A stretch of DNA of 64,000 nucleotides from Henricia sp. BOLD:AAB3569. Taxonomy: Eukaryota > Echinodermata > Asteroidea > Spinulosida > Echinasteridae. Of the stretch, positions 34,190 to 56,090 are shown piece after piece; the first letter of the stretch is position 1, and every line of letters starts with the position of its first letter. The notes beneath the pieces were generated by a model. That model had not been told where the DNA came from and made no database searches. It saw only the letters and a list, made by a program, of their open reading frames with translations. Made by a program: the position numbers and the translations under genes. The stretch spans positions 1,736,001-1,800,000 of the forward strand of contig JBBELK010000326.1 in the NCBI GenBank assembly GCA_037783545.1, given 5' to 3'.

Positions 34190-34261
34190 TCCCATATGGT
34201 CTAGTGGTTAGGATCCGGCGCTCTCACCGCCGTGGCCCGGGTTCAATTCCCGGTGTGGGAA
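34190..34261 (+). tRNA. tRNA-Glu(CTC), copy 60
   Basis: Consensus tRNA, spacer with aaatTtgtaaatc and tttgcTgtt. Its downstream spacer contains a 210-bp internal duplication. Confidence 0.96.
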
Positions 34262-34344
34262 GTCGTTGATCAGCAGCAGCAAAGATTCCTCTGCAAGCTA
34301 CTGGCAAAACACTGCGAGGAAACGTCTGTCGTGTCTTTGAAAAA

Positions 34345-34764
34345 TTGGTAAATCTTTTTGTCTCGCGACAACAACCCAATTACTCATTGAAGTCTCATCT
34401 TTTTAGTTCTGTTCAATTTTATGTGGCTGATCCGTCACTTGTATTCCATAATTTCCACTTGAAACAAAACTACCCCAGCCTGCAGCTGCAAGAGTGAAAA
34501 TTGCCAAACAGCAGACCAGCGTCTATTTTGGGAAACGAAAGTCACATACGCTACTTGGTAAATCTTTTTGTCTCGCGACAACAACCTAATTACTCATTGA
34601 AGTCTCATCTTTTTAGTTCTGTTCAATTTTATGTGGCTGATCCGTCACTTGTATTCCATAATTTCCACTTGAAACAAAACTACCCCAGCCTGCAGCTGCA
34701 AGAGTGAAAATTGCCAAACAGCATACCAGCGTCTATTTTGGGAAACGAAAGTCACATACGCTAC
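34345..34764 (+). repeat. 210-bp direct duplication within a spacer
   Basis: Positions 34345-34554 and 34555-34764 are direct copies of the trailer-to-midspacer segment (from ttggtaaatc to acgctac). The second copy joins a taccag-type spacer and reads cctaatta instead of cccaatta. The junction has essentially no microhomology. It stretches the copy 60-61 interval to 784 bp and adds no tRNA. Confidence 0.93.
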
Positions 34765-34973
34765 TGAGCAAACTAGGGCCTCTTTTCCGAGCTAGATAGA
34801 TTGTTCAAAATGTTTGCGGTTGCAAGAAAATACCCCACATCACGATGGTGGCCTATTTCTACACTAGACCACACTCGTGCAGCTCGCAACTCTCTCTAAT
34901 ATAGAAGTATTTGAGGGCATACAAGATATTCACGAGCTCGGCGCACGGGTCTCTGCTTATTTACACAGTCGAG

Positions 34974-35045
34974 TCCCATATGGTCTAGTGGTTAGGATCC
35001 GGCGCTCTCACCGCCGTGGCCCGGGTTCAATTCCCGGTGTGGGAA
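34974..35045 (+). tRNA. tRNA-Glu(CTC), copy 61
   Basis: Consensus tRNA, taccag spacer and ctgcTtattt leader, 784 bp after copy 60. Confidence 0.96.
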
Positions 35046-45318: not shown

Positions 45319-45390
45319 TCCCATATGGTCTAGTGGTTAGGATCCGGCGCTCTCACCGCCGTGGCCCGGGTTCAATTCCCGGTGTGGGAA
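45319..45390 (+). tRNA. tRNA-Glu(CTC), copy 79
   Basis: Consensus tRNA, last in the left arm. The leader has ctagctAattc and gcctAattac. Its downstream spacer is cut by the retroelement 417 bp after the tRNA. Confidence 0.96.
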
Positions 45391-45807
45391 GTCGTTGATC
45401 AGCAGCAGCAAAGATTCCTCTGCAAGCTACTGGCAAAACACTGCGAGGAAATGTCTGTCGTGTCTTTGAAAAATTGGTAAATCTTTTTGTCTCGCGACAA
45501 CAACCCAATTACTCATTGAAGTCTCATCTTTTTAGTTCTGTTCAATTTTATGTGGCTGATCCGTCACTTGTATTCCATAATTTCCACTTGAAACAAAACT
45601 ACCCCAGCCTGCAGCTGCAAGAGTGAAAATTGCCAAACAGTAGACCAGCGTCTATTTTGGGAAACGAAAGTCACATACGCTACTGAGCAAACTAGGGCCT
45701 CTTTTCCGAGCTAGATAGATTGTTCAAAATGTTTGCGGTTGCAAGAAAATACCCCACATCACGATGGTGGCCTATTTCTACACTAGACCACACTCGTGCA
45801 GCTCGCG

Positions 45808-45871
45808 ACTATTTGCACAACCGCCGACGTTGAGGGTTGCGTAGGAATCTACGCAGTCTCGAGTATACCAA
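45808..45871 (+). repeat. Split direct repeat A1 (left end)
   Basis: 64 bp, identical to A2 at 55590-55653. It begins ACTATTTGCACAAC and contains a 7-bp hairpin stem TGCGTAG/CTACGCA with a GAAT loop (45838-45855), a possible accessory recombinase site. It joins the array at ...gctcgcg|ACT. Confidence 0.95.
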
Positions 45872-46848
45872 CCCGTCGGGTGGACGTGTGTGTGATCGCT
45901 CGGGATAATCAATGGTTTTGAATTATCATCCATTAGCTGATATATTTCGAGGAAAATGAAAGTGCAGCAGTGTGTTACCTAGCGTCGAGTTTGGGATGTT
46001 TTGTAAGGCGAAATCAGGTAACCAGAGTAATTTAGAGGCATTTAAACATTTGCGAGGTGTGGGCAGCACCGCGCACCAGTATCATGCATTACGCAGCTTC
46101 AAGCAATCGCCGTTACCGCACGCATGGTTGGCACTACGTTGGGTAAAGCCTATACGTACGTACATAGTCAAATTGGCTCTTTCTCAACAATGGTAGAGCG
46201 CGCTCCAGTAATTCCTTTTGAATTTTCGCGTGCCTTAAGCAATGCACCCCTCATTGGGCTTGCGTGTGTATTATATAGGCTATTGTGCCAATGCTGTGTG
46301 CGGGTTATGCTGCCTCGTCGTGTTTTATGTACCGGACAAGTTTCCAACTACATGTACTCGTTTGCTGAATGTGCTGAAGATGGACATGATTTACGCCTTA
46401 GTTGAGGTACGAATTGCTTCAATGCTTTATATGTCATAAGATATTATTCAGTTTTGGTAAAACATCTGTCAGGCCCATAAATATGGCGAATTAGGCCTAG
46501 TAGCCTCAGGCTCGTATTTTATAGGTATCACCCGTGTGGCGACGGGGGCCCAGCCATTCGACAGGTATACAGGTATACAGCCAAATATTTTGTACGTATA
46601 CAAATGCATACGACTCTTTAATTAAGTTTGGGCTACTAAGCCCACCATGCACAAGTACGCATTATAACAATTAACACACGCGTCTCCGAAACAGTGCTTT
46701 TCTCCGCCTTTTTATGGAGCCAGGCGGCCAAGGTACAGCGTGGGTCGGAGAAGGCATGGGCAGGTGAAATGCTTTCGATAATTGGCGTTTACACAAACAG
46801 TTTCCGAAATTTCAATTTTCTTTATTGCTTTTTTCGTGCTCCCTATAG
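45872..46848. other. Left internal region, no recognised gene
   Basis: Non-repetitive, moderately AT-rich sequence inside the element. Three short overlapping open frames (46-46.45 kb) show no family motif I recognise and no conserved codon pattern. A gag-like protein would be expected in this part of an intact element but cannot be identified. Confidence 0.5.
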
Positions 46849-47049
46849 GAAAAGGCGGATGCCAAGGATGGTTGGCAAGACATCGACCAATTGCAAGGTC
46901 TGAAAGACCGCTGGAGGGAGAATTTGTTCACCTTGGCGTCCTATGGATCCATATGGAGGACAACGCCGAAATCTGGAGCGAATGCTCCAACGGGTAAACA
47001 AGGCTCAGGGTGCAATGCTAGCATGTTTATAAACGGGGCACGCCCTTGA
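46849..47049 (+). CDS. Possible terminal exon, 66 codons, unknown
   Basis: An open frame begins directly after a pyrimidine-rich tract and a CTATAG acceptor-like site (AG at 46847-46848) and ends at TGA 47047. The predicted peptide is charged, with DGWQDIDQLQGLKDRWREN near its start, and looks more protein-like than neighbouring frames. An in-frame TAG overlaps the acceptor and there is no usable ATG, so it would need splicing, perhaps to sequence ending near 46764 before gtgaaatg. No homology recognised. It could be chance. Confidence 0.2.
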   Translation, partial: EKADAKDGWQDIDQLQGLKDRWRENLFTLASYGSIWRTTPKSGANAPTGKQGSGCNASMFINGARP

Positions 47050-48430
47050 ATCGTGGGAATTAAAATACCAGTTTGGCATGTTCGTTAGATGATAGAGGGC
47101 GGGCCTCTTTCAAGATTCGTAGTTCGGAAAGTGCCCTCACAATTCTTGTTTTGTTATTGCTCGAGCATGTATAGCGAGCGCAATATAACAATAAAAAAGG
47201 AGTCAGCCTAGCATTTGGGAAATCTGGTTCTGGCCTTTTGTTTCAAGGTACCTGTGTTAGCGCCCTCATAGGTAACGGAACAGGCCCTAAGTGGCAAGTG
47301 AATGGACTCTTGCTTACTAAATGTATGAAGTGGAGGACGGGCCCCCAAACGCGCAGTTTAAGCGCATCTTTTGTTAGGCAATTTACGAAGCACGGGTTGG
47401 GCTTCCGAGTATCAAGGCCTAGATCGTATTTCTATGGACCAGGACTGGTCCCTGAGTACATGTGGGCTATTTCACAGTGGGTGGTCATTTGAGTAGATTA
47501 CAGTTTAACCCATCCTGGATAACTTTATCAGTGCATATACATGTTATGAGTGATTTTATATGACGGGTAATATGAAGGACAAGCTACAGAACTATTTTTA
47601 CATAATTCTACGAGTTATTCGTTTTTAATTTCTCTATTTACATGCACTTTTAACACCATTTTGGAGTCTCATTTCAAGTTTTGCATTAGTTTAAGTGCAA
47701 TCATTTGTTGATGATGCATTATTGTGGTGATCATTTGGTGATCAATCATGGATATATAGTGTTCAACAATATTGTGAAACTTGGGTTGGTGTAATTCGGT
47801 CAACAAAAAAACAAACAAACAAACAAACAAATAAAATATGGTAATGTCCTCTCCAGGTCAAGGTATTCCACACAATGGAATAGTTTGGAGATATGTACTC
47901 ACAAAGATGTTTGTATCATCACATGACACATTTGATGGAGTAAATATGACAATTTGATCGTGCAAGAGATTTGAGTAAATTTTATCAAGATCATATTCAG
48001 GGTTGTGGAAAATCCGTTAAACATTTGTCCTCTCCAGGACAGCATTCAATTGTAATATAACATGTCAACCATGATTGAAATATTTCGTTGTTAGGTTTGT
48101 AAAATTAATAGTACCATTCCTTCTAACAGGACAGTGCATGGCATTACCATTTCAACATTTAGTCTGGCCATTATATTGTGATATTCTGTGTTTAACAAAA
48201 TGTCCTCTCCAGACAACCAATTATAAATTATGATTTCAGTGGAAAAAATAAACACGTTAATCATAATGCCACGCTCTGATATTTTTTGAATTATTAGTAT
48301 ACATCCTGAAGTTTTTAGATCAACAAACTTTTGTGAGTTGGACAAGTTTGAAATTTTACCCCGATTTGCCAGTGAGACTGAAAGTGTACACTTATTGTGA
48401 AATAGCCCATGTCTTAATTTCCAGTTCCTT
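47050..48430. other. Internal AT-rich region with scattered repeats
   Basis: No gene seen. Holds two diverged copies of the minisatellite motif (about 47094 and 47331), a (CAAA)n tract at 47801-47836, and the 12-mer TGTCCTCTCCAG at 47845, 48026 and 48201 (spacings 181 and 175 bp). Confidence 0.6.
47801..47836 (+). repeat. (CAAA)n microsatellite
   Basis: Five or so CAAA repeats preceded by an A7 run. Simple sequence only. Confidence 0.9.
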
Positions 48431-49700
48431 CGAGGAGGCAGAGCATGGGCCTCTGAATGCTATGCTGTTGTTCGTGAGCACGTCAATTATACTGAATGAT
48501 AGATATGTGTCGCCATTAGGCAGCAAGCATAGATGCACTGGGGGTTTGGCTTGACAATACTTAAAGTTTCGTCATAACCCCAGTCAGAATCTGTATAGGC
48601 CGAGGACGGGCCTCTAAAGGGCAAGTTCAAAGTACCCATAGATTACATGTGTACTTGCCGAGATCGGGCCTCTGAATACTAAGTGGTAATAGATATTCCA
48701 CATGTACTCGGTACTAGACAGAGGACGGACCGAGTAAATATTGCCCACGTACTCTATATACTAGATAGAGGGCGGGCCTCCCAATGCCAAGTTTAATATG
48801 CTCATAGCTTGCATGTGTACTAGGCAGAGGAGGGCCTCTAAATGCCAAGTTGAGATGCCAAGTTCTGATGTGACGCTAATTTTGGCATTGGTACCCTTTA
48901 CTAGACAGCCGACTTCTGAATTAGCGTATCCCTATTAATATGCGCTCTTATTTGGTATTGGTACATAAGGGCGTGTACATAGGCAGAGGACGGGTCTCTG
49001 AATTCAAAATTTCAATAAAAATCAATTTTATGAATGCCAAATTTTAATGTGCCCATGTTTTCTATGTGTATAGATACAGGTACTAGGCACAGACGGGTCC
49101 CTGTATGTCAAGTGTAATATACCCATAAATGGCGTGTGTGCTAGAGGACGGGCCTCGGGACACCAAGCTTAAAGTTGCATTGCCCGTGTTTCGGTGAAAG
49201 GATTAAAAATAAAAATTAATTTACACAAGCGAACGAATTTATAAAGCTTACGTGTCTCTGTAACGAAAAATATCAAAAACTTAAGTTTCCGACGTCGGGA
49301 GTTGGAGATGCAGGCCTTTTTCTTGAAACGTGCTTTTCATGTTGTGCATGTGCGCGTGCGCTCGTATGTACATGGTGTGTGTGCAATGTGCACATGTGCG
49401 CGCACATGTGCATTTGCGTCATGGCCCTGTCGATTGGGTGACCTGCCAGCCATTTGGTCGTTTCTTGTTTTTGATCGACTGGCGTTGGTCCTTGACGGAT
49501 TGTTTTACGTTCTTGGTGCCAAGTGGGGGCTGATAACTTTTTCTATTCGGGAAAGTTACCTATTTTACCAGTGCAACTTTGATGAGCATTTATATTGCAG
49601 GTGCGATACACAGAGGGCGGGCCTCTGTATGAATGTACCCTTGATTTGCATGTGTACTCGGTACCAGGCTGAGGGCGTGCCTCTGAATGCCAGGCTTATG
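48431..49700 (+). repeat. Diverged minisatellite related to the 50.2-kb array
   Basis: Degenerate copies of the core gaggacgggcctc followed by tgaatgccaagttt occur near 48437, 48601, 48661, 48721, 48773, 48824, 48981, 49087, 49144, 49613 and 49670, often 50-60 bp apart and usually preceded by tgtac. They look like older, diverged relatives of the homogeneous array downstream. Confidence 0.75.
49389..49412. other. 24-bp perfect palindrome in a TG/CG-rich tract
   Basis: Perfect inverted repeat centred on CG at 49400/49401 (half site CGCACATGTGCA), inside an alternating purine-pyrimidine stretch, 49341-49412, that could adopt Z-DNA or a cruciform. The 150-codon open frame across it is probably a by-product of this simple composition. 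Confidence 0.85.
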
Positions 49701-49754
49701 GTACATGTGCAATGTAACCATATTTTGCGTATTACAATCGGGTCATGGTCTTAG

Positions 49755-50219
49755 ATGAGAGACATTCTATGATTTGAAGCAAAAAAGCCCCTTTTCCCCT
49801 TGTCCAATCAAAATGTTTCATATATGAGTGGGACGGGAATTTTATGTAGTTTATTCATAAGTGCGAGTTGAATCTGTGTGTCACAGAGAACGACCGTGCC
49901 GTTCAATTCAGTGAGACAACCTACTGAAAAATGATCAGTAATCGTGTTGACCTCCATTGACTTTGCCGATTTTGAGGTTCAACACCCGTTCTTTGAGTGA
50001 AAAAAGCCCCTTTTCCCCGTGCATCATATATTTTATGAAATAATAACCAAACTAAAGGTAATACTCTGTACTTTGAAACGCATAGCGAGTTGGGGAGAAA
50101 CATAGACGTACTTTTTTTATGTACTCACAAAAGTTCGCAGTGAGGGGCTGTTTTCCGTGTCATTTTCCTGCGCTGAGCGTAGGGTCACGGAGCTCAGCGA
50201 GCAGATGCGCGCAAGTTCA
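49755..50219. other. Unassigned internal sequence
   Basis: No gene recognised. The phrase aaaaaagccccttttcccc occurs twice (about 49780 and 49999), hinting at an old short duplication. Confidence 0.5.
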
Positions 50220-50225
50220 TGGTGC

Positions 50226-51105
50226 AAATGTACTTGGCAGAGGACGGGCCTCTGAATGCTATGTTTATGGTGCAATGTACTTGCCAGAGGACGGGCCTCT
50301 GAATGCTATGTTTATGGTACAAATGTACTTGGCAGAGGACGGGCCTCTGAATGCTATGTTTATGGTGCAATGTACTTGGCAGAGGACGGGCCTCTGAGTG
50401 CTATGTTTATAGTGCAATATACTTGGCAGAGGACGGGCCTCTGAATGCTATGTTTAAGGTACAAATGTACTTGCCAGAGGACGGGCCTCTAAACGCTATG
50501 TTTATGGTGCAATGTACTTGGCAGAGGACGGGCCTCTGAATGCTATGTTTGTGGTACACATGTACTTGGCAGAGGACGGGCCTCTGAGTGCTATGTTTAT
50601 AGTGCAATGTACTTGGCAGAGGACGGGCCTCTGAATGCTATGTTTAAGGTACAAATGTACTTGCCAGAGGACGGGCCTCTGAACGCTATGTTTATGGTGC
50701 AATGTACTTGGCAGAGGACGGGCCTCTGAATGCTATGTTTGTGGTACAAATGTACTTGGCAGAGGACGGGCCTCCGAGTGCTATGTTTATAGTGCAATGT
50801 ACTTGGCAGAGGACGGGCCTCTGAATGCTATGTTTAAGGTACAAATGTACTTGCCAGAGGACGGGCCTCTGAATGCCGTGTTTGTGGTACAATGTACTTC
50901 TATTTTGCACATATGCGCGCTATACTTGGCAGAGGACGGGCCTCTGAATGCCATGTTTGTGGTACAATGTGCTTCTATTTCGCATACTCTGTATTTGGCA
51001 GAGGACGGGCCTCTGAATGCCATGTTTGGGGTACAGTGTACTTCTATTTCGCATATATGTACTCTGTACCTGGCAGAGGGCGGGCCTCTGTATGCCATGT
51101 TGATG
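50226..51105 (+). repeat. 47/48-bp minisatellite with 95- and 190-bp higher order
   Basis: Monomers begin tacttggcagaggacggg and continue ctctgaatgctatgttta. Lengths alternate 47 and 48 bp, giving a 95-bp dimer. The marker gtgctatgtttatag recurs every 190 bp (about 50398, 50588, 50778), so two dimers form the recent unit. The array degrades after 50880, where cttctatttcgcat inserts appear. The core gaggacgggcctc is a gapped palindrome. Open frames on both strands arise from the repeat and are not taken as genes. Confidence 0.95.
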
Positions 51106-51494
51106 GGCCTTCGCTAGCACGCTGATTTTAATGTGGTCCAGGGGCACCTCTTTGTGCCATTTTGTGAATCCCAAAGTTCAAGTACCCCGTAAAAAAAATA
51201 AAAAAAACCAACCAGTACCATTGAGTACCAGTGGTATTTGAAAATGCTGGAGAGTCATCTGTGTGAGAGAGATTTTGATCAATCTTTGATCCCATCGCTA
51301 CGCACGCAGCGAAGCGGAAACGAGGCACCTCCCAGTGGGTAATTTTCAATGGCAAACCAAGTGGCTTGCCAGTCCCTTTTACACCCACCCCGCCTGAAGT
51401 TCTCTCTGGTAGACTACAGGTAGATTTATAGGCGCTCGGATTCAGAGATCCAACTATTTTGTAGCCGGCACATTAAGCAATGATCCTGGTGCTT
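51106..51494. other. Region between minisatellite and RT remnant
   Basis: No gene seen. Contains an A-rich tract with interruptions (about 51191-51212). It may hold decayed N-terminal pol sequence. Confidence 0.5.
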
Positions 51495-52134
51495 TGGGAC
51501 GATATCTTAGCAGAGTCACCCAATAGGGACGAAGTTCATGGTTGGCTTCATCATGGAATTAGTCTGTATAATTTTTTTCCAGTCGTTTCATGGCAGATAC
51601 AGGGGCAGGAATTGCTGTTTATAATTGCCCACCGAAAGGTATTTTAAATGCGCTCATTTGTCAAGATTATGTCGCCCTTTTCATAGACACAATCACCAGG
51701 CGGTGGATAGAGGGCTCTATATACGTTGTGGGTAGGGTCAAGGAAGTACAGCCGCCGAAATGTGTGACTGCCTTGACAGTCTGCTTCTATATCAATGAAG
51801 GGACCTAATCTTTGGCGCAAGGACACACCCTTCAGTGTGGTACCTTTAGGCAATGTTGTCAGACCCATAACCAAAGGCGATATTTTCTCAAGTACCGACA
51901 ACAGCCAGGGATACAAGCAAATCTTCTTGACCAAGGAGTCCAGAACCTTTTCCGGCTTCGAGTGGGTTTGGTTTAAAAAAAAAAAACAAAAAAAACAAAA
52001 AAAAAAATTCCATTGGCTTTTGTCTTCCCGCATGGCTTAAGAACAGAGGTATACATACAGAAATATGGATAGACGACCGTTTCATTGGCAAGTGCCATCC
52101 CAGCGATGGAGGGCCAAAGTATACGAAGGTTTAA
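51495..52134 (+). pseudogene. Reverse transcriptase remnant (Ngaro/DIRS type)
   Basis: Homologous blocks lie in three frames. 51495-51577 reads WDDILAES...HGWLHHGISLYNFF. 51590-51808 reads VGRVKEVQPPK...LTV...INEGT. 51795-51972 reads DTPFSVVP and SSTDNSQGYKQIFL, the RT motif A region with Asp at 51897, then FSGFEW. A 36-bp A-rich tract (51973-52008) interrupts where the LPFG region should be. The catalytic YxDD equivalent IWIDDR lies at 52063-52080, and its frame ends at TAA 52132. The gene is clearly non-functional. Assignment rests on motif order and on the recombinase downstream. Confidence 0.8.
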
Positions 52135-52146
52135 AACACTTCACTC

Positions 52147-52664
52147 GTGTTTGTTTTATTGCGGTGTGAACAGGACATGCATGGGGACGGTTCCTACATC
52201 AGAGCTCTAAGGGCCGTTTACGTCGTACGCTACATACAGTTAAAGCTCGGCTTGTTCAGCAACTTAAAGAAAAGTCATCGGCAGCCATCGAACAGCATGG
52301 TGCATCTCGGGTTCGGCATCTGCTCCAAACCCTATCATTTCCGATTCCTGAGCATAAAAAGGTATCATTCGCTGAGGTACGAGAGACAATTTTGCGGAAG
52401 GATAAAATGCTCTAAAAACAGATGCAACGTTTTGTGGGCAAAGGCCAAAGTTTTGCTCTGGTGTTTGTTTGTTTCTGAGGGAATGCTCCTCCTTCATATC
52501 TACACTTGATATGATCTCGTGCCTACGCCTCTGTCACCACAAGTGCGGGAGGAGATTCTATTTTGGAGGTTTGTCGATAGCTTCTCGCAGCTGATCCCTT
52601 GAAGTCAAGGCCGCCACCTTGCTATCGCATTGCACTGTCGGCAGACGCATCTGGCTATAAATAG
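52147..52664 (+). pseudogene. RT thumb and RNase H remnant
   Basis: Continues the pol remnant. MVHLGF (near 52300) is followed in another frame by FPIPEHKKVSFAEVRETI from 52338, an in-frame TAA at 52413, then KQMQRFVGKGQSFAL. REEILFWRFVDSFSQ follows from 52546, and SADASGYK (52638-52661) is the RNase H Asp-containing motif, ending in TAG where Trp is usual. Same strand and order as expected after RT. Confidence 0.75.
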
Positions 52665-52677
52665 GGCGGTACCCTAG

Positions 52678-52845
52678 TCTTACCAGACGATGGCAAACAG
52701 GAGCAAGGGCAGGAGGAGACTAACTTTCGTAGATCAGCTGAAGAGGGACGCAACACAACAAGAAACAACTGAGCTTAGGACGCTGATGCTGGACCGAGAT
52801 GCGTGGAAGACGACCATCAGAGTTTCCCGAGAAGGCGTCGGCTAA
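52678..52845 (+). pseudogene. C-terminal scrap of a LINE (non-LTR) RT protein
   Basis: The frame ending TAA at 52843 encodes GRRRLTFVDQLKRDATQ followed by TELRTLMLDRDAW. This matches the conserved tail of animal non-LTR reverse transcriptases (GRxRxxxVDQLxxDTG...ELxxxMxDRxxW). It lies between RNase H and the SGNH domain, so it is probably a 5'-truncated LINE insertion or a captured fragment. No poly(A) tail or target duplication was identified. Confidence 0.65.
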
Positions 52846-53190
52846 AGACAACCTCTCGCTCAACTAAGTGTAAGTTTCTGAGATTACTGGTCCGCAGACA
52901 TTTTGGGACACACGGGTATATGTCGCAAGGAGGCCCTTGATCTATATTTTGTGTGGCTCTCAGTCTTTGATTCGCTATGGAACTTGATGGTGGATGTGGT
53001 TGGAGATTCCAGAAATGTAGTGGATGCTTGGACTGGCCTCCGAGCTAGGTCTAAACCGCTTTCAAAAATGTTGAAGTTTAATTTTTTGTTTTGCCCTCTC
53101 CTTGGAGGCAAATTTTTCGCTCAAGTTGACCTAGGTCTCATCTGGTAATCCCACAGGTTTTCACCTCTGATTTGATGTCACTTTCGTCAA
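52846..53190. other. Unassigned sequence between LINE scrap and SGNH frame
   Basis: A 75- to 81-codon open frame exists on each strand, but neither resembles a known domain. Possibly decayed linker of the retroelement. Confidence 0.5.
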
Positions 53191-54096
53191 ATGTCCCGGC
53201 GCGCAGGAACGGGTCTCCACTCAAGTTCTTCCTTTCGCCTGTCAGAGGCAGGTCAAGCAGGGATTTTTAGAATGTCCCGAATTTTTCAAGGGCTGGGGTT
53301 TGAGCTCCGGGCCTTCCAGTGCTACTTCCCACGTATTGTCACCCCCCGAATGGATATCGCTTACGTTAAGCGCCACCATGTTCTCCTTGTGTCCGACTCA
53401 ATGTTCAGAGGGTTCAAAGGATTCGGCTGGCCCAAGGCATTGAGCGTGAAAATGTTAGCCAACGGAGGCACAAAAATGGCCCCGTTATGTAGACATCTGG
53501 TGGTATCTTGCAGGGCTTTTCAGCCGGAGGTGGCAGTTTTGCGCGGAGGCATAAATGATTTCAGCCGATTGACCGACCCTTCGCAGGGTGTACTTGACGT
53601 GGTAGGGTTTTTTCGCGCTGTTGCCCAACTGATCAGGGAAAAAATTCCCAATATGCATATTTGTTCTTTCCTCAAGGTGCCAAACCAAGATGGTGGACAT
53701 CAATCGCTCAGTCTCCGTAGTCAACTCATTATTGAAAGAGGTCTATCATGAATGCTAGCTGGCAGTTTTTTCTCGAACGATTACATCGTGGAGCAGGATC
53801 TTGCGGACATTGTGCACCTATCGATGATGGGATATCTAAGCTCCAGCGCAGGCTGCGGCTGTTTTCAGATCCGTTTCGGGCTTGCCCTCGGGAATTCCGA
53901 TACAATGCTAAATTTCTTCTTCAATCATGCCCTCCCCTTCACGAGAGCGTTTTGGTATCTTTTTGAAGATGATCAGTGCGGCAACCAGGCTGACAAAACT
54001 AGGAAACGAGTTGGATACGCAGGGATATGGAGTGCAAAAGAGCGGACTTATTTGCAGCATATAGACCGATTTCTGCGGAAGCATCAAAGCAAATGA
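53191..54096 (+). pseudogene. SGNH-hydrolase-like domain of the retroelement
   Basis: One reading frame with a single internal TGA at 53749-53751. All SGNH blocks are visible: HVLLVSDSM with the nucleophile Ser at 53398, GGTK (block II), VLRGGINDFS with Asn at 53554, and after the stop ADIVHLS with Asp 53806 and His 53815. Similar esterase domains occur in retrotransposon proteins (CR1 ORF1, some Ngaro elements). The tail after 53830 seems frameshifted, because the alternative frame at 53823 reads DDGISKLQRRLRLF, the more typical continuation. The first 50 codons are not recognisable. Confidence 0.7.
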
Positions 54097-54229
54097 TGCT
54101 GTACTGAAGGGGAGGATCTGGAGTCAGTGACACCACTTGACATCCTATGCTTTTTGATCGATCGTGACTCAGAAGGTCGCACGCAGATTCACGGCTTAGG
54201 GTGAAAAAATTTGGGTAAGCACGGGATCT
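54097..54229. other. Linker before the MITE
   Basis: No gene recognised. Probably the decayed N-terminal part of the recombinase ORF or an intergenic linker. Confidence 0.45.
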
Positions 54230-54392
54230 GCAGCCGATTTCACGAATCCTTACGCACTGCGTAAGTCCGCTTGCGCAACATTTTATTGCGTAGGCTGCGC
54301 AACATTCCTGTGAAAATTACACGCAAGCTATAGGGCTTGCGCCATTTTGCAAAAGTTGCGCAAGCTGCGCACTCTTTCGTGAAATCGGCTGC
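54230..54392. mobile_element. 163-bp MITE with 17-bp terminal inverted repeats
   Basis: The left end GCAGCCGATTTCACGAA (54230-54246) is the perfect reverse complement of the right end (54376-54392). The interior is rich in gcgcaa/ttgcgc motifs and can fold on itself. It has no coding capacity. No clear target-site duplication is visible, so the superfamily is undetermined. It sits just upstream of the recognisable recombinase frame and is a younger insertion into the element. Confidence 0.85.
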
Positions 54393-54431
54393 CGCTCTTG
54401 TGGGTGCCCGCTTATATTAGCGGCATGCACC

Positions 54432-55259
54432 GTGGACTCTTGCATCTCTCACCAAGTTCGTAGATACATGAATGCAATGCAGCTGGAGCAGGCTGAGTCT
54501 CACATTACTTCAAAGCAGGCAATTCCATTGTTTTCTGATAAGTTACGATGGTCGGTGAAAGAGATCACTGACCGATCCTGGAGACTTGGCAAAGGCGAAG
54601 GTCTTTTCCCCTAGCGCTACGTGGTACAACGAGACTTGGCCCTTTTCCTCTGCCTATAATGGGCCGGAGACAGAGCTGGTGACCTAGGAGGAATCAGAAC
54701 CTGAAAAATAACAAGGATCGAAGGAGGCGATTTTTTATTCAGCCACACTATTGGCAAGACGGTAAGTGAGGGTGACTCATCATTGATAATGATTCCAAAG
54801 TTGCAGGACCAAGGAAAGATGGATCCAGTCGGCGCAGTTCAAAGTCTGGTTGATCTTTCGCCCCTTGGCGGCCAATCGCAGAGTCCTCGTAAACAAACCC
54901 TTCGCCTGTTAACGGACCGAATTCACGGCTGAAGATGTATTTTGCCGCAACAGACAACCCTGAAAACCAGCTTTTGAGAGCGCACAACAGCCGTGCCATG
55001 GGTAGCAACCACACTGCGGCTCCTGGATGCATCGGACGAGCAGGTGATGGACCACTGCCAATGGGCGTCGCGGAAGACGTACAAGCACTATACCCAGGTT
55101 GAGAGAGTGATGAGGCGTCAGAGCACGGTCCAGGTATTACGCGACGCCGTCTCCACAGCTGAACAAAGTCCAATGGCAGATATCGTCGGACAATTCTATA
55201 GGCGTCTGAACTCGGGCCTCGGGGCCCGCGTAGCTTTCCCGCCATCTACATGCAGCTGA
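54432..55259 (+). pseudogene. Tyrosine recombinase (Ngaro/DIRS integrase) remnant
   Basis: A single frame runs the whole length, with five stops (TAG 54612, TAA 54657, TGA 54702, 54930, 54975) and no evident frameshift. IPLFSDKL and WRLGKGEG precede the Arg I box WAGDRAGDLG (Arg at 54672). FLFSHTIGKT follows. TLRLLDASDEQVMDHCQW and KTYKHYTQ carry the third-position W and the nucleophilic Tyr (55089). The second-box HxxR expected near 54978-54995 is not recognisable. The recombinase would integrate a circular DNA intermediate. All stops could derive from C-to-T changes of CAG, CAA or CGA. Confidence 0.82.
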
Positions 55260-55515
55260 TATGTCTAAAAATGCCATCACCTACTAACAAAACTACCCAT
55301 TTTGTTTTTTAATCAATTTTATAGGCAGCGACAGCTTGAGAAAAGAAAAGAGAAGAAAATAAAATGAAAGAAAGGCAGCAAGACAACTAGTCCAGTTTTT
55401 CTTTCCTTTCTATCTGATACAGTCTCCCGCTTTCGTTTGAGGTTTGGGTAAGGATTGGGGTGTATTTGGGCAGGTTTGGGGGTTCTCGGCGGCCTACGAG
55501 GGCAGGTTTTGGCGA
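55260..55515. other. 3' untranslated region of the element with G-rich tract
   Basis: No gene. A purine-rich stretch (aaagaaaagagaag, about 55340-55380) is followed by a G-rich segment with four runs of three or more G at 55446, 55457, 55468 and 55478, a possible G-quadruplex on the + strand just before B1. Confidence 0.6.
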
Positions 55516-55592
55516 AATCCATCTAACCCATATCTAAACCCTATAGATGCCGGAGTCGGACGGAAACAAAGGCGTTGTGCAAATAGGTTACT
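55516..55592 (+). repeat. Split direct repeat B1
   Basis: 77 bp, identical to B2 (offset 344). It ends gttgtgcaaataggttACT and overlaps A2 by the triplet ACT. Confidence 0.95.
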
Positions 55593-55603
55593 ATTTGCAC
55601 AAC
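55574..55603. other. Internal B1-A2 junction, putative recombination site
   Basis: Two 13-bp arms, GTTGTGCAAATAG (55574-55586) and CTATTTGCACAAC (55591-55603), are perfect reverse complements separated by GTTA. The geometry resembles a tyrosine-recombinase crossover site. It equals the joint formed when the element's right and left ends meet in a circle, so it can template restoration of both ends during reverse transcription. Confidence 0.8.
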
Positions 55604-55653
55604 CGCCGACGTTGAGGGTTGCGTAGGAATCTACGCAGTCTCGAGTATACCAA
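55590..55653 (+). repeat. Split direct repeat A2
   Basis: 64 bp, identical to A1 at the far left end, including the TGCGTAG/CTACGCA hairpin. Confidence 0.95.
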
Positions 55654-55859
55654 GGTGGCAGGTGGGTAGTATTTGGACGAGAAGGAACGAGTCGGCAGAG
55701 GACGGTATACGGTTGTATGTCTCAACGGTGGTAAGATAATAGTTTGGCCTCGGCGGCCAGCTTCTGGTGAGTATTATTATATATATACCTTTTTTTCCCC
55801 CGCCCACCCGACCTCCTTCCTCATTGCTGAGCTTTCCTATGGCTTCGGTTTCTATGCTC
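55654..55859. other. A2-B2 spacer
   Basis: 206 bp not repeated at the left end. Contains an AT run tattattatatatatac (about 55772-55788) followed by T7 and C5 runs, which could act in promoter or RNA-end formation, though this is inference. No gene. Confidence 0.5.
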
Positions 55860-55936
55860 AATCCATCTAACCCATATCTAAACCCTATAGATGCCGGAGT
55901 CGGACGGAAACAAAGGCGTTGTGCAAATAGGTTACT
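55860..55936 (+). repeat. Split direct repeat B2 (right end)
   Basis: 77 bp, identical to B1. Its last three bases ACT (55934-55936) are shared with the resumed array sequence ACTCTCTCTAAT, 85 bp upstream of tRNA copy 80. Confidence 0.95.
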
Positions 55937-56018: not shown

Positions 56019-56090
56019 TCCCATATGGTCTAGTGGTTAGGATCCGGCGCTCTCACCTCCGTGGCCCGGGTTCAATTCCCGGTGTGGGAA
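56019..56090 (+). tRNA. tRNA-Glu(CTC), copy 80, G40T variant
   Basis: First copy of the right arm, G40T at 56058. Its spacer, split by the retroelement, is the cagTagacc type at its left part (45649), the same pairing seen in copies 77, 84 and 92. Confidence 0.88.

Follow-up and report, generated by a model that had tools for sequence, protein, structure and literature searches.

How does a retrotransposon that integrates by means of a tyrosine recombinase choose its target, and what is exchanged there? In the literature consulted, target choice and strand exchange are mostly a model. The question is raised by a window of 64,000 nucleotides, part of contig C326 (JBBELK010000326.1, positions 1,736,001 to 1,800,000) of the 740.7-Mb genome of the sea star Henricia sp. 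BOLD:AAB3569. The window contains 93 transfer RNA (tRNA) genes of the tRNA-Glu(CTC) type, as detected with ARAGORN, and one unit of this array is interrupted by an element with split direct repeats, termed A and B. With a probability of about 80%, this locus reflects a single, recent integration event of a non-autonomous, Ngaro-like family of tyrosine-recombinase retrotransposons, which is mobilised in trans and exchanges strands at one cytosine beside a half-site.

Junctions and empty sites of the element family

The tRNA genes flanking the element start at 45319 and 56019, and removal of 10,126 bp from the 10,700 bp between them leaves a unit of 574 bp. The 11-base motif GTGCAGCTCGC occurs at 88 places, of which 87 are empty and read GCTCGC-A-ACT-CTCTCT, and the filled one reads GCTCGC-G-ACT. 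The original prediction that excision restores the 574-bp unit is correct in length and not letter for letter, because the filled site has a G where the 87 empty units have an A. This G at position 45807, which precedes the left ACT, might be a point change or a trace of integration. The predicted insertion 85 bp upstream of a tRNA-Glu gene was found again as the distance from the start of the ACT to the start of the tRNA, and the identity of A1 with A2 (64/64) and of B1 with B2 (77/77) was reproduced, confirming the observation itself.

Searching the assembly for further copies, as had been proposed, revealed a dispersed family. The 64-bp A repeat gave at least 40 matches, the best 40 of which were scored, and an A-repeat pattern with up to two mismatches matched the whole genome 144 + 133 times, A2 copies included. 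With the junction bases left free and most A2 copies excluded by a distant base, 130 left ends were found. Since the ends of the window copy recur genome-wide and reversed-pattern controls for the end searches gave 0 matches, these ends are beyond chance. For the junction census we used the first 100 of 130 left and the first 100 of 187 right matches. Removal of 3 A2-like rows and of exact duplicates left 85 left ends; on the right, 12 rows with B1-like or deleted junctions, one more row and exact duplicates were dropped, leaving 83. Near-duplicates may remain in both sets.

The left triplets were ACT (50), GCT (18), TCT (10), CCT (4), ATT, ACA and CAT (1 each). By position, C was present at −2 in 83 and T at −1 in 84 of the 85 ends, and position −3 was variable (A 52, G 18, T 10, C 5). 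Right triplets were ACT (75), ACG (4), ACA (3) and ACC (1); their A and C were invariant in all 83 ends, and the third base was T in 75, G in 4, A in 3 and C in 1. Left junctions thus read N-C-T and right junctions A-C-N: the outer base follows the target and the central C is nearly constant. To the question whether ACT is always found at the joint the answer is no: only the central C is shared, also by the empty sites.

Six empty sites were identified. Two of them, the window tRNA-Glu unit (87 units) and a tRNA-Glu unit on contig C329, read ACT. A local search over 44 pairs of flanks found a GCA site for copy C43 with 23/23 flank bases. Among the 13 complete copies found besides the window's, the joined flanks of 12 were searched, with positive results for three: copy C112 (ACT, 152/152 bp on contig C849), copy C62 (ACT, 153/153 bp on C257, and 39 listed places at 99% on C62) and copy C60b (ACA, with 39 of the 40 places listed matching at 100% along 156 bp, the joint being query base 540). 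For copy C2 the search returned only its own two halves, and for the other 8 copies the 40 scored places were filled by the C62 and C60b sites. A near match of copy C60a lies inside other family copies (ACC, several mismatches) and was not counted as an empty site. The 39 places on C62 belong to a tandem array at 29121-185340 with units of mostly 2.2-2.4 kb.

The central C was present in 6/6 empty sites, and no target bases were duplicated or lost at any of them, in agreement with the predicted insertion without target duplication. At the GCA (C43) and ACA (C60b) targets the outer base remained that of the target, replacing the element's A or T, as predicted for an exchange at the central cytosine. 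It is at these two sites that the exchange rule is directly shown; the four ACT sites fit the rule and cannot test it.

Target preference and tRNA arrays

Bases to the right of the triplet were also biased (+1 A in 61, +2 T in 64, +3 T in 48 and +4 T in 39 of the 83 ends), corresponding to ATTTG, with which the A arm of the element itself begins. Targets therefore carry a half-site (ATTT) like the element's left end, and an inverted half-site is weakly visible left of the triplet at −15..−10. A target model built from these ends was used to tell 44 paired sites (42 distinct) apart from the background, 3,478 C positions in ten flanks; the leave-one-out area under the curve was 0.97, near-duplicate flanks being kept in. 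The median score of the paired sites was 3.37, a value reached by 1.2% of the background positions. Among the 262 C positions of the tRNA-Glu unit, the site used on C329 ranked 2.

A 35-base tRNA-Glu word with at most one mismatch matched the genome 654 times, which at 574 bp each corresponds to approximately 0.05% of the genome. C329 likewise has copies seated in tRNA-Glu units; their site reads TTTCTAC-ACT-AGACC and precedes the next tRNA by 110 bp. The copies at 97627 and 126362 appear to stem from a single insertion that was duplicated along with the array, because they are 99.73% identical (10306/10334) and share a rare left-flank variant. The copy at ~240238-250668 has the same right flank, its left flank being known for one base; this copy probably inserted separately at that same base, given that it differs in B type and has a recombinase piece that clusters with another subfamily. 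C329 thus likely holds two further insertions in tRNA-Glu units, at a unit base different from that of the window copy. Three events would be more than even spacing gives for ~0.05% of the genome. The question raised with the original prediction, whether other copies lie in tRNA-gene DNA (tDNA), can be answered in part: the two likely insertions on C329 do, and as a general target tDNA fails, as a tRNA gene was found in the flanks of 1/24 other copies (a tRNA-Thr in L011; 40 loci scanned, L050-L052 apart). The flanks scanned were ~1 kb long, and 10 of the 24 copies contributed one side only. The elements enter tDNA repeatedly, but not as a rule.

Several further features of these arrays were observed. 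The ends of the copy at C329:126362-137123 (L047:362 to L048:1123) match different bases of the tRNA-Glu unit, with CTAC-ACT on the left and AGT-ATTTGAGG on the right, and the part of the unit that should lie between these bases is absent, which would fit recombination of two insertions. The distant relative L052 (C860:64800-69200), which has an open recombinase frame, ends with ACT-ATTGTC inside a tRNA-Val array with five empty sites in the locus. In the window, one tRNA-Glu unit (34190-34974) is 784 bp long compared to the usual 574, with ~210 bp extra, and four tRNA-Glu genes (25605, 27892, 31328 and 37844) were called with 64 bases instead of 72 and the anticodon at 26 instead of 34.

Anatomy, coding state and relatives

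The features of the window element are listed in Table 1. Its split direct repeats follow the Ngaro-type order A1...B1-A2...B2, in the window as in the complete copies compared. When region 55545-55625, spanning the palindromic B1-A2 junction, was folded as single-strand DNA, free energies of −20.4 (plus) and −19.1 (minus) kcal/mol were obtained (z −4.6 and −5.2). Length differences of 95 bp between family members equal the period of one internal array.

Table 1. Window positions of the element's features and of the adjacent tRNA genes
Feature	Position	Strand	Remarks
tRNA-Glu(CTC) gene, unit upstream of element	45319..45390	+	ARAGORN
A1, left terminal repeat	45808..45871	+	starts with left-junction ACT; 64/64 identical to A2; one strict pattern fits 130 left ends genome-wide
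Internal tandem repeats, two overlapping arrays	50215..51101	+	50215-50899 period 95, 50846-51101 period 75; TRF
Broken reverse transcriptase / RNase H region	51241..52689	+	83% DNA identity to L050; 64% to part of L051 962-aa frame
SGNH (GDSL-like) hydrolase remnant	53176..53751	+	Pfam Lipase_GDSL_2 E = 0.0085, below curated cut-off
Broken tyrosine-recombinase region	54028..55238	+	matched stretches 54028-54228 and 54366-55238; homology to L052 420-aa frame
B1 repeat	55516..55592	+	77/77 identical to B2
Palindromic B1-A2 junction	55574..55603	.	13-bp arms 55574-55586 and 55591-55603, GTTA 55587-55590 between; sequence reading and fold
A2 repeat	55590..55653	+	ACT 55590-55592 common with B1; 64/64 identical to A1
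B2, right terminal repeat	55860..55936	+	last bases are right-junction ACT; 77/77 identical to B1
tRNA-Glu(CTC) gene, interrupted unit	56019..56090	+	ARAGORN

Fourteen complete copies were compared, the window copy and 13 from the 40 best A matches, a set in which older or more divergent copies are unsampled. They are 98.4-99.6% identical outside gaps; A1 equals A2 (64/64) in all 14, and B1 equals B2 across the last 77 bp, the terminal base aside, in 13. Since the terminal repeats are nearly all identical, these sampled copies are, judged by their sequences, recent insertions.

The predicted order of the coding remnants was recovered, with a region similar to reverse transcriptase (RT) and RNase H (~51,240-52,690) followed by SGNH and recombinase. 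In a two-sequence tblastn comparison, the 420-amino-acid (aa) frame of L052 matched the window at 54366-55238 (43% over 339 columns, best E = 7e-73) and at 54028-54228 (45% over 67 columns), with stops inside. Domain scans of the window's own frames gave weak matches only, among them an ALOG trace below the cut-off (E = 0.035). No methyltransferase, adenine methylase included, was matched among the frames scanned, which were part of all frames, and a PHROGs search gave no match. Searches of solved structures returned no RT or recombinase match of usable E-value, the only match being an ALOG-domain protein (2.2e-4). A split-direct-repeat element with recombinase remnants and exact ends is therefore supported, and the designation "complete" applies to its ends and not to its coding frames; these are broken, and many copies have identical stop counts. 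The RNase H-region match at 52170-52694 contains 2 TGA, 2 TAG and 1 TAA. Using a query from L049 and counting by eye, this set of stops was seen in 22 of the 150 matches listed, the window's included, and 3 TGA, 2 TAG and 1 TAA were seen in 71. In seven frames (two overlap) codon variants across the 14 copies were 35 synonymous and 73 non-synonymous. A scan for three-base periodicity found 0/161 windows with p < 0.02, a result of low power as the median window has ~4% variable sites. The family thus looks non-autonomous, having apparently amplified after its genes broke and been moved by other elements.

Candidate helpers exist among the relatives, whose RT frames extend over 962, 970 and 804 aa without stops. 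L051 encodes a CCHC gag (2.2e-6) and retains the end core CAAATAGATTACT; matches of its 962-aa frame to RVT_1, RT_RNaseH, RVT_3 and SGNH are weak and below curated cut-offs. In L052, Lipase_GDSL_2 (SGNH) was found with E = 1.4e-5, below the cut-off, and the 420-aa recombinase frame carries an ALOG domain (E = 1.4e-16). Judging from these frames, open gag, RT/RNase H/SGNH and recombinase frames occur in relatives, spread over more than one of them. The single B at the right ends of L051 and L052 looks as if B1 and B2 had recombined. Two loci were rejected as helpers: L049, in which most of the recombinase region is missing, and the 380-aa frame of L050, which looks chimeric because a second RT follows it. 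That RT (L050 on C622, 3413-3949, minus strand; RVT_1 E = 1.3e-13), which is DIRS-like by its motifs, comes after Ngaro-like RT and RNase H frames and suggests a nested insertion. Ngaro-like RT frames are also repeated on contig C624 (206715-235150), mostly at a spacing of 5.1 kb, which would fit tandem amplification of a unit with such an element inside.

SGNH domains are known from Ngaro elements. The Ngaro assignment is partly supported and provisional, fitting the repeat layout, the SGNH remnant and the lack of a methyltransferase match in the frames scanned. Of the predicted Ngaro-like character, the repeat layout, SGNH and the lack of target duplication stood; the recombinase frame of a relative, however, has an ALOG domain, a feature reported for a DIRS1-type class. 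The putative Ngaro-type RT/RNase H was matched at domain level only through relatives and below Pfam cut-offs, and the putative tyrosine-recombinase region upstream of B1 is homologous to the ALOG-bearing frame of L052. As outlined in PMC8547959, PMC3783388 and PMC4157794, Ngaro elements have the layout A1-ORFs-B1A2B2 (ORFs, open reading frames). The window element resembles them in its split direct repeats, with B1A2 following the recombinase region, in an RT/RNase H-like stretch and in an SGNH remnant, and differs from this outline in its ~10 kb, broken coding regions, internal tandem arrays and a relative's ALOG-bearing recombinase frame. It differs further in having a target rule, for which 85 left ends, 83 right ends and six empty sites were read; a limited literature search, which is no proof of absence, found no target-site profile for a Ngaro element. 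The element is not DIRS1-like because its terminal repeats are direct; DIRS1-like elements are marked by inverted terminal repeats and internal complementary regions. ALOG-bearing DIRS1-type retroposons, in the account of PMC3537659, encode an adenine methylase, and those of Ectocarpus have terminal direct repeats of 159 bp. The ALOG domain in the L052 recombinase frame is shared with that class; the A1-B1A2-B2 layout and the absence of a methylase match in the frames scanned set the family apart from it as described there.

Integration model and alternatives

According to the favoured reading, an element without working proteins would be moved in trans by related coding-intact elements. Reverse transcription would lead to a circular DNA in which B meets A in a palindrome with 13-bp arms around RTTA, as suggested by the published circle model together with the arrangement of the repeats. 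The recombinase may bind the A-side arm and a similar target half-site, N-C-T-ATTT, for which the target bias is seen directly. Exchange at one cytosine would give a left junction consisting of target through N and then the element's T at its end, and a right junction in which the element's A is kept and the base after C comes from the target. The tRNA-Glu array was probably hit because its unit holds usable sites, repeated ~650 times.

Several observations weigh against this reading. The recombinase catalytic domain is without hidden Markov model support in the window and in the relatives' frames scanned, and we presume the recombinase identity from the ALOG domain, the position and sequence motifs. 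The C at −2 is absent in 2 of the 85 left ends (ATT, CAT) and the T at −1 in one, the lowest of the 44 paired-site scores is −5.45, the window site ranks only 31 among the 262 C positions of the unit, and the substitution at its left junction is unexplained. Equal stop counts do not prove equal stop positions. As to helpers, L051 is without a recombinase frame ahead of its right end, L052 was read from SGNH to the right end only, no single complete helper is present among the relatives read, and the right ends of L051 (4290-4365) and L052 each have one B and no B1-A2-B2. Moreover, a 93-aa piece of the recombinase stays open in 148 of the 150 copies listed, which is not the picture of random decay, even if these copies hardly differ from one another. 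This piece, and the fact that copies share the same open stretches, would fit an autonomous element whose genes look broken only through spliceosomal introns. We regard such introns as highly unlikely: the RT/RNase H stops interrupt a stretch for which relatives have an open frame, no codon-position signal was seen and non-synonymous variants prevail (73 to 35), splice sites not having been searched for. A misjoin of the element into the array during assembly is hardly credible. Long identical arrays are hard to assemble, but the flanks at the two ends complement each other to one unit, ACT being common to both, and the same precision was seen at five other sites.

Targeting of tRNA genes through the RNA polymerase III (Pol III) machinery is known from several yeast and amoeba retrotransposons. 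If it applied here, the array would be the element's home; the probably three distinct insertions in ~654 tRNA-Glu units and the distant relative that ends in a tRNA-Val array speak for this. It is nevertheless distinctly unlikely, as a tRNA gene was found in the scanned flanks (~1 kb, one-sided for 10 copies) of a single one of the 24 other copies, a high-copy repeat and a tandem array of another kind also hold copies, and the recurrent tDNA site ranks 2/262 by sequence alone. Classical tyrosine-recombinase integration would ask that the target equal the 3-bp junction of the circle. The DIRS1 model, in the form outlined in PMC3266345 for DIRS1-like elements, has a circular intermediate with a 3-bp junction (here ACT), asks for identity over the 3 bp and leaves no target duplication. 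The window family resembles this model in lacking a target duplication and, presumably, in a circle with a 3-bp junction; it differs in needing the middle base and a preferred half-site to its right rather than 3-bp identity. ACT is indeed the commonest triplet (50/85 left, 75/83 right) and is found at 4/6 empty sites. However, at 20 of the 44 paired sites one side or both read something other than ACT, and GCA and ACA targets were entered precisely, so that 3-bp identity is too strict for this family. The strict rule is refuted; a loose form, in which homology helps, remains, and overall we consider this explanation unlikely.

How many strands take part bears on the one-cytosine exchange itself. 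Two-strand exchange with a staggered cut should, after replication, leave about half of the products with a left junction that contains the element spacer. At the five positions preceding the triplet, agreement with the spacer AGRTT was seen in 17, 21, 44, 20 and 24 of the 85 left ends (expected 24.6, 17.9, 42.5, 24.6 and 24.6), approximately as by chance, and RTT at −6..−4 occurred in 6/85 compared to 3.6 by chance, one of the six being ATTACT. A spacer class was thus not seen beyond chance in these ends, which points to an overlap of one to three bases or to single-strand exchange. The left ends are the real test for this class; a search for an alternative right-end class gave 3 matches, none convincing, with a pattern blind to that class if the target C is kept. 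By analogy, a strand of the circular cDNA folded at the B1-A2 palindrome might join the double-stranded target at one base, with replication resolving the product. We treat this as a tentative and somewhat doubtful idea, which if true would explain the spacer-free left junctions and the lack of a need for spacer homology. Single-strand exchange resolved by replication operates in integron cassettes and CTXphi; within the part of the literature consulted, we know of no eukaryotic retrotransposon for which it has been shown. As in integron cassette attC integration, in the outline of PMC4792948, the palindrome could fold from one strand and the exchange is visible on one side only. Unlike the integrons described there, the window family is a eukaryotic retrotransposon known from sequence, and the likeness is one of analogy.

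The many near-identical copies of this family, their readable ends and several exact empty sites make the published 3-bp identity rule testable, and this rule looks too strict: one base and a preferred half-site appear to suffice. Given the one-sided junctions, the circle model can be put to the test as a choice between exchange of one strand and exchange of two. Natural multi-copy target plates are provided by tandem arrays, those of tRNA genes included.

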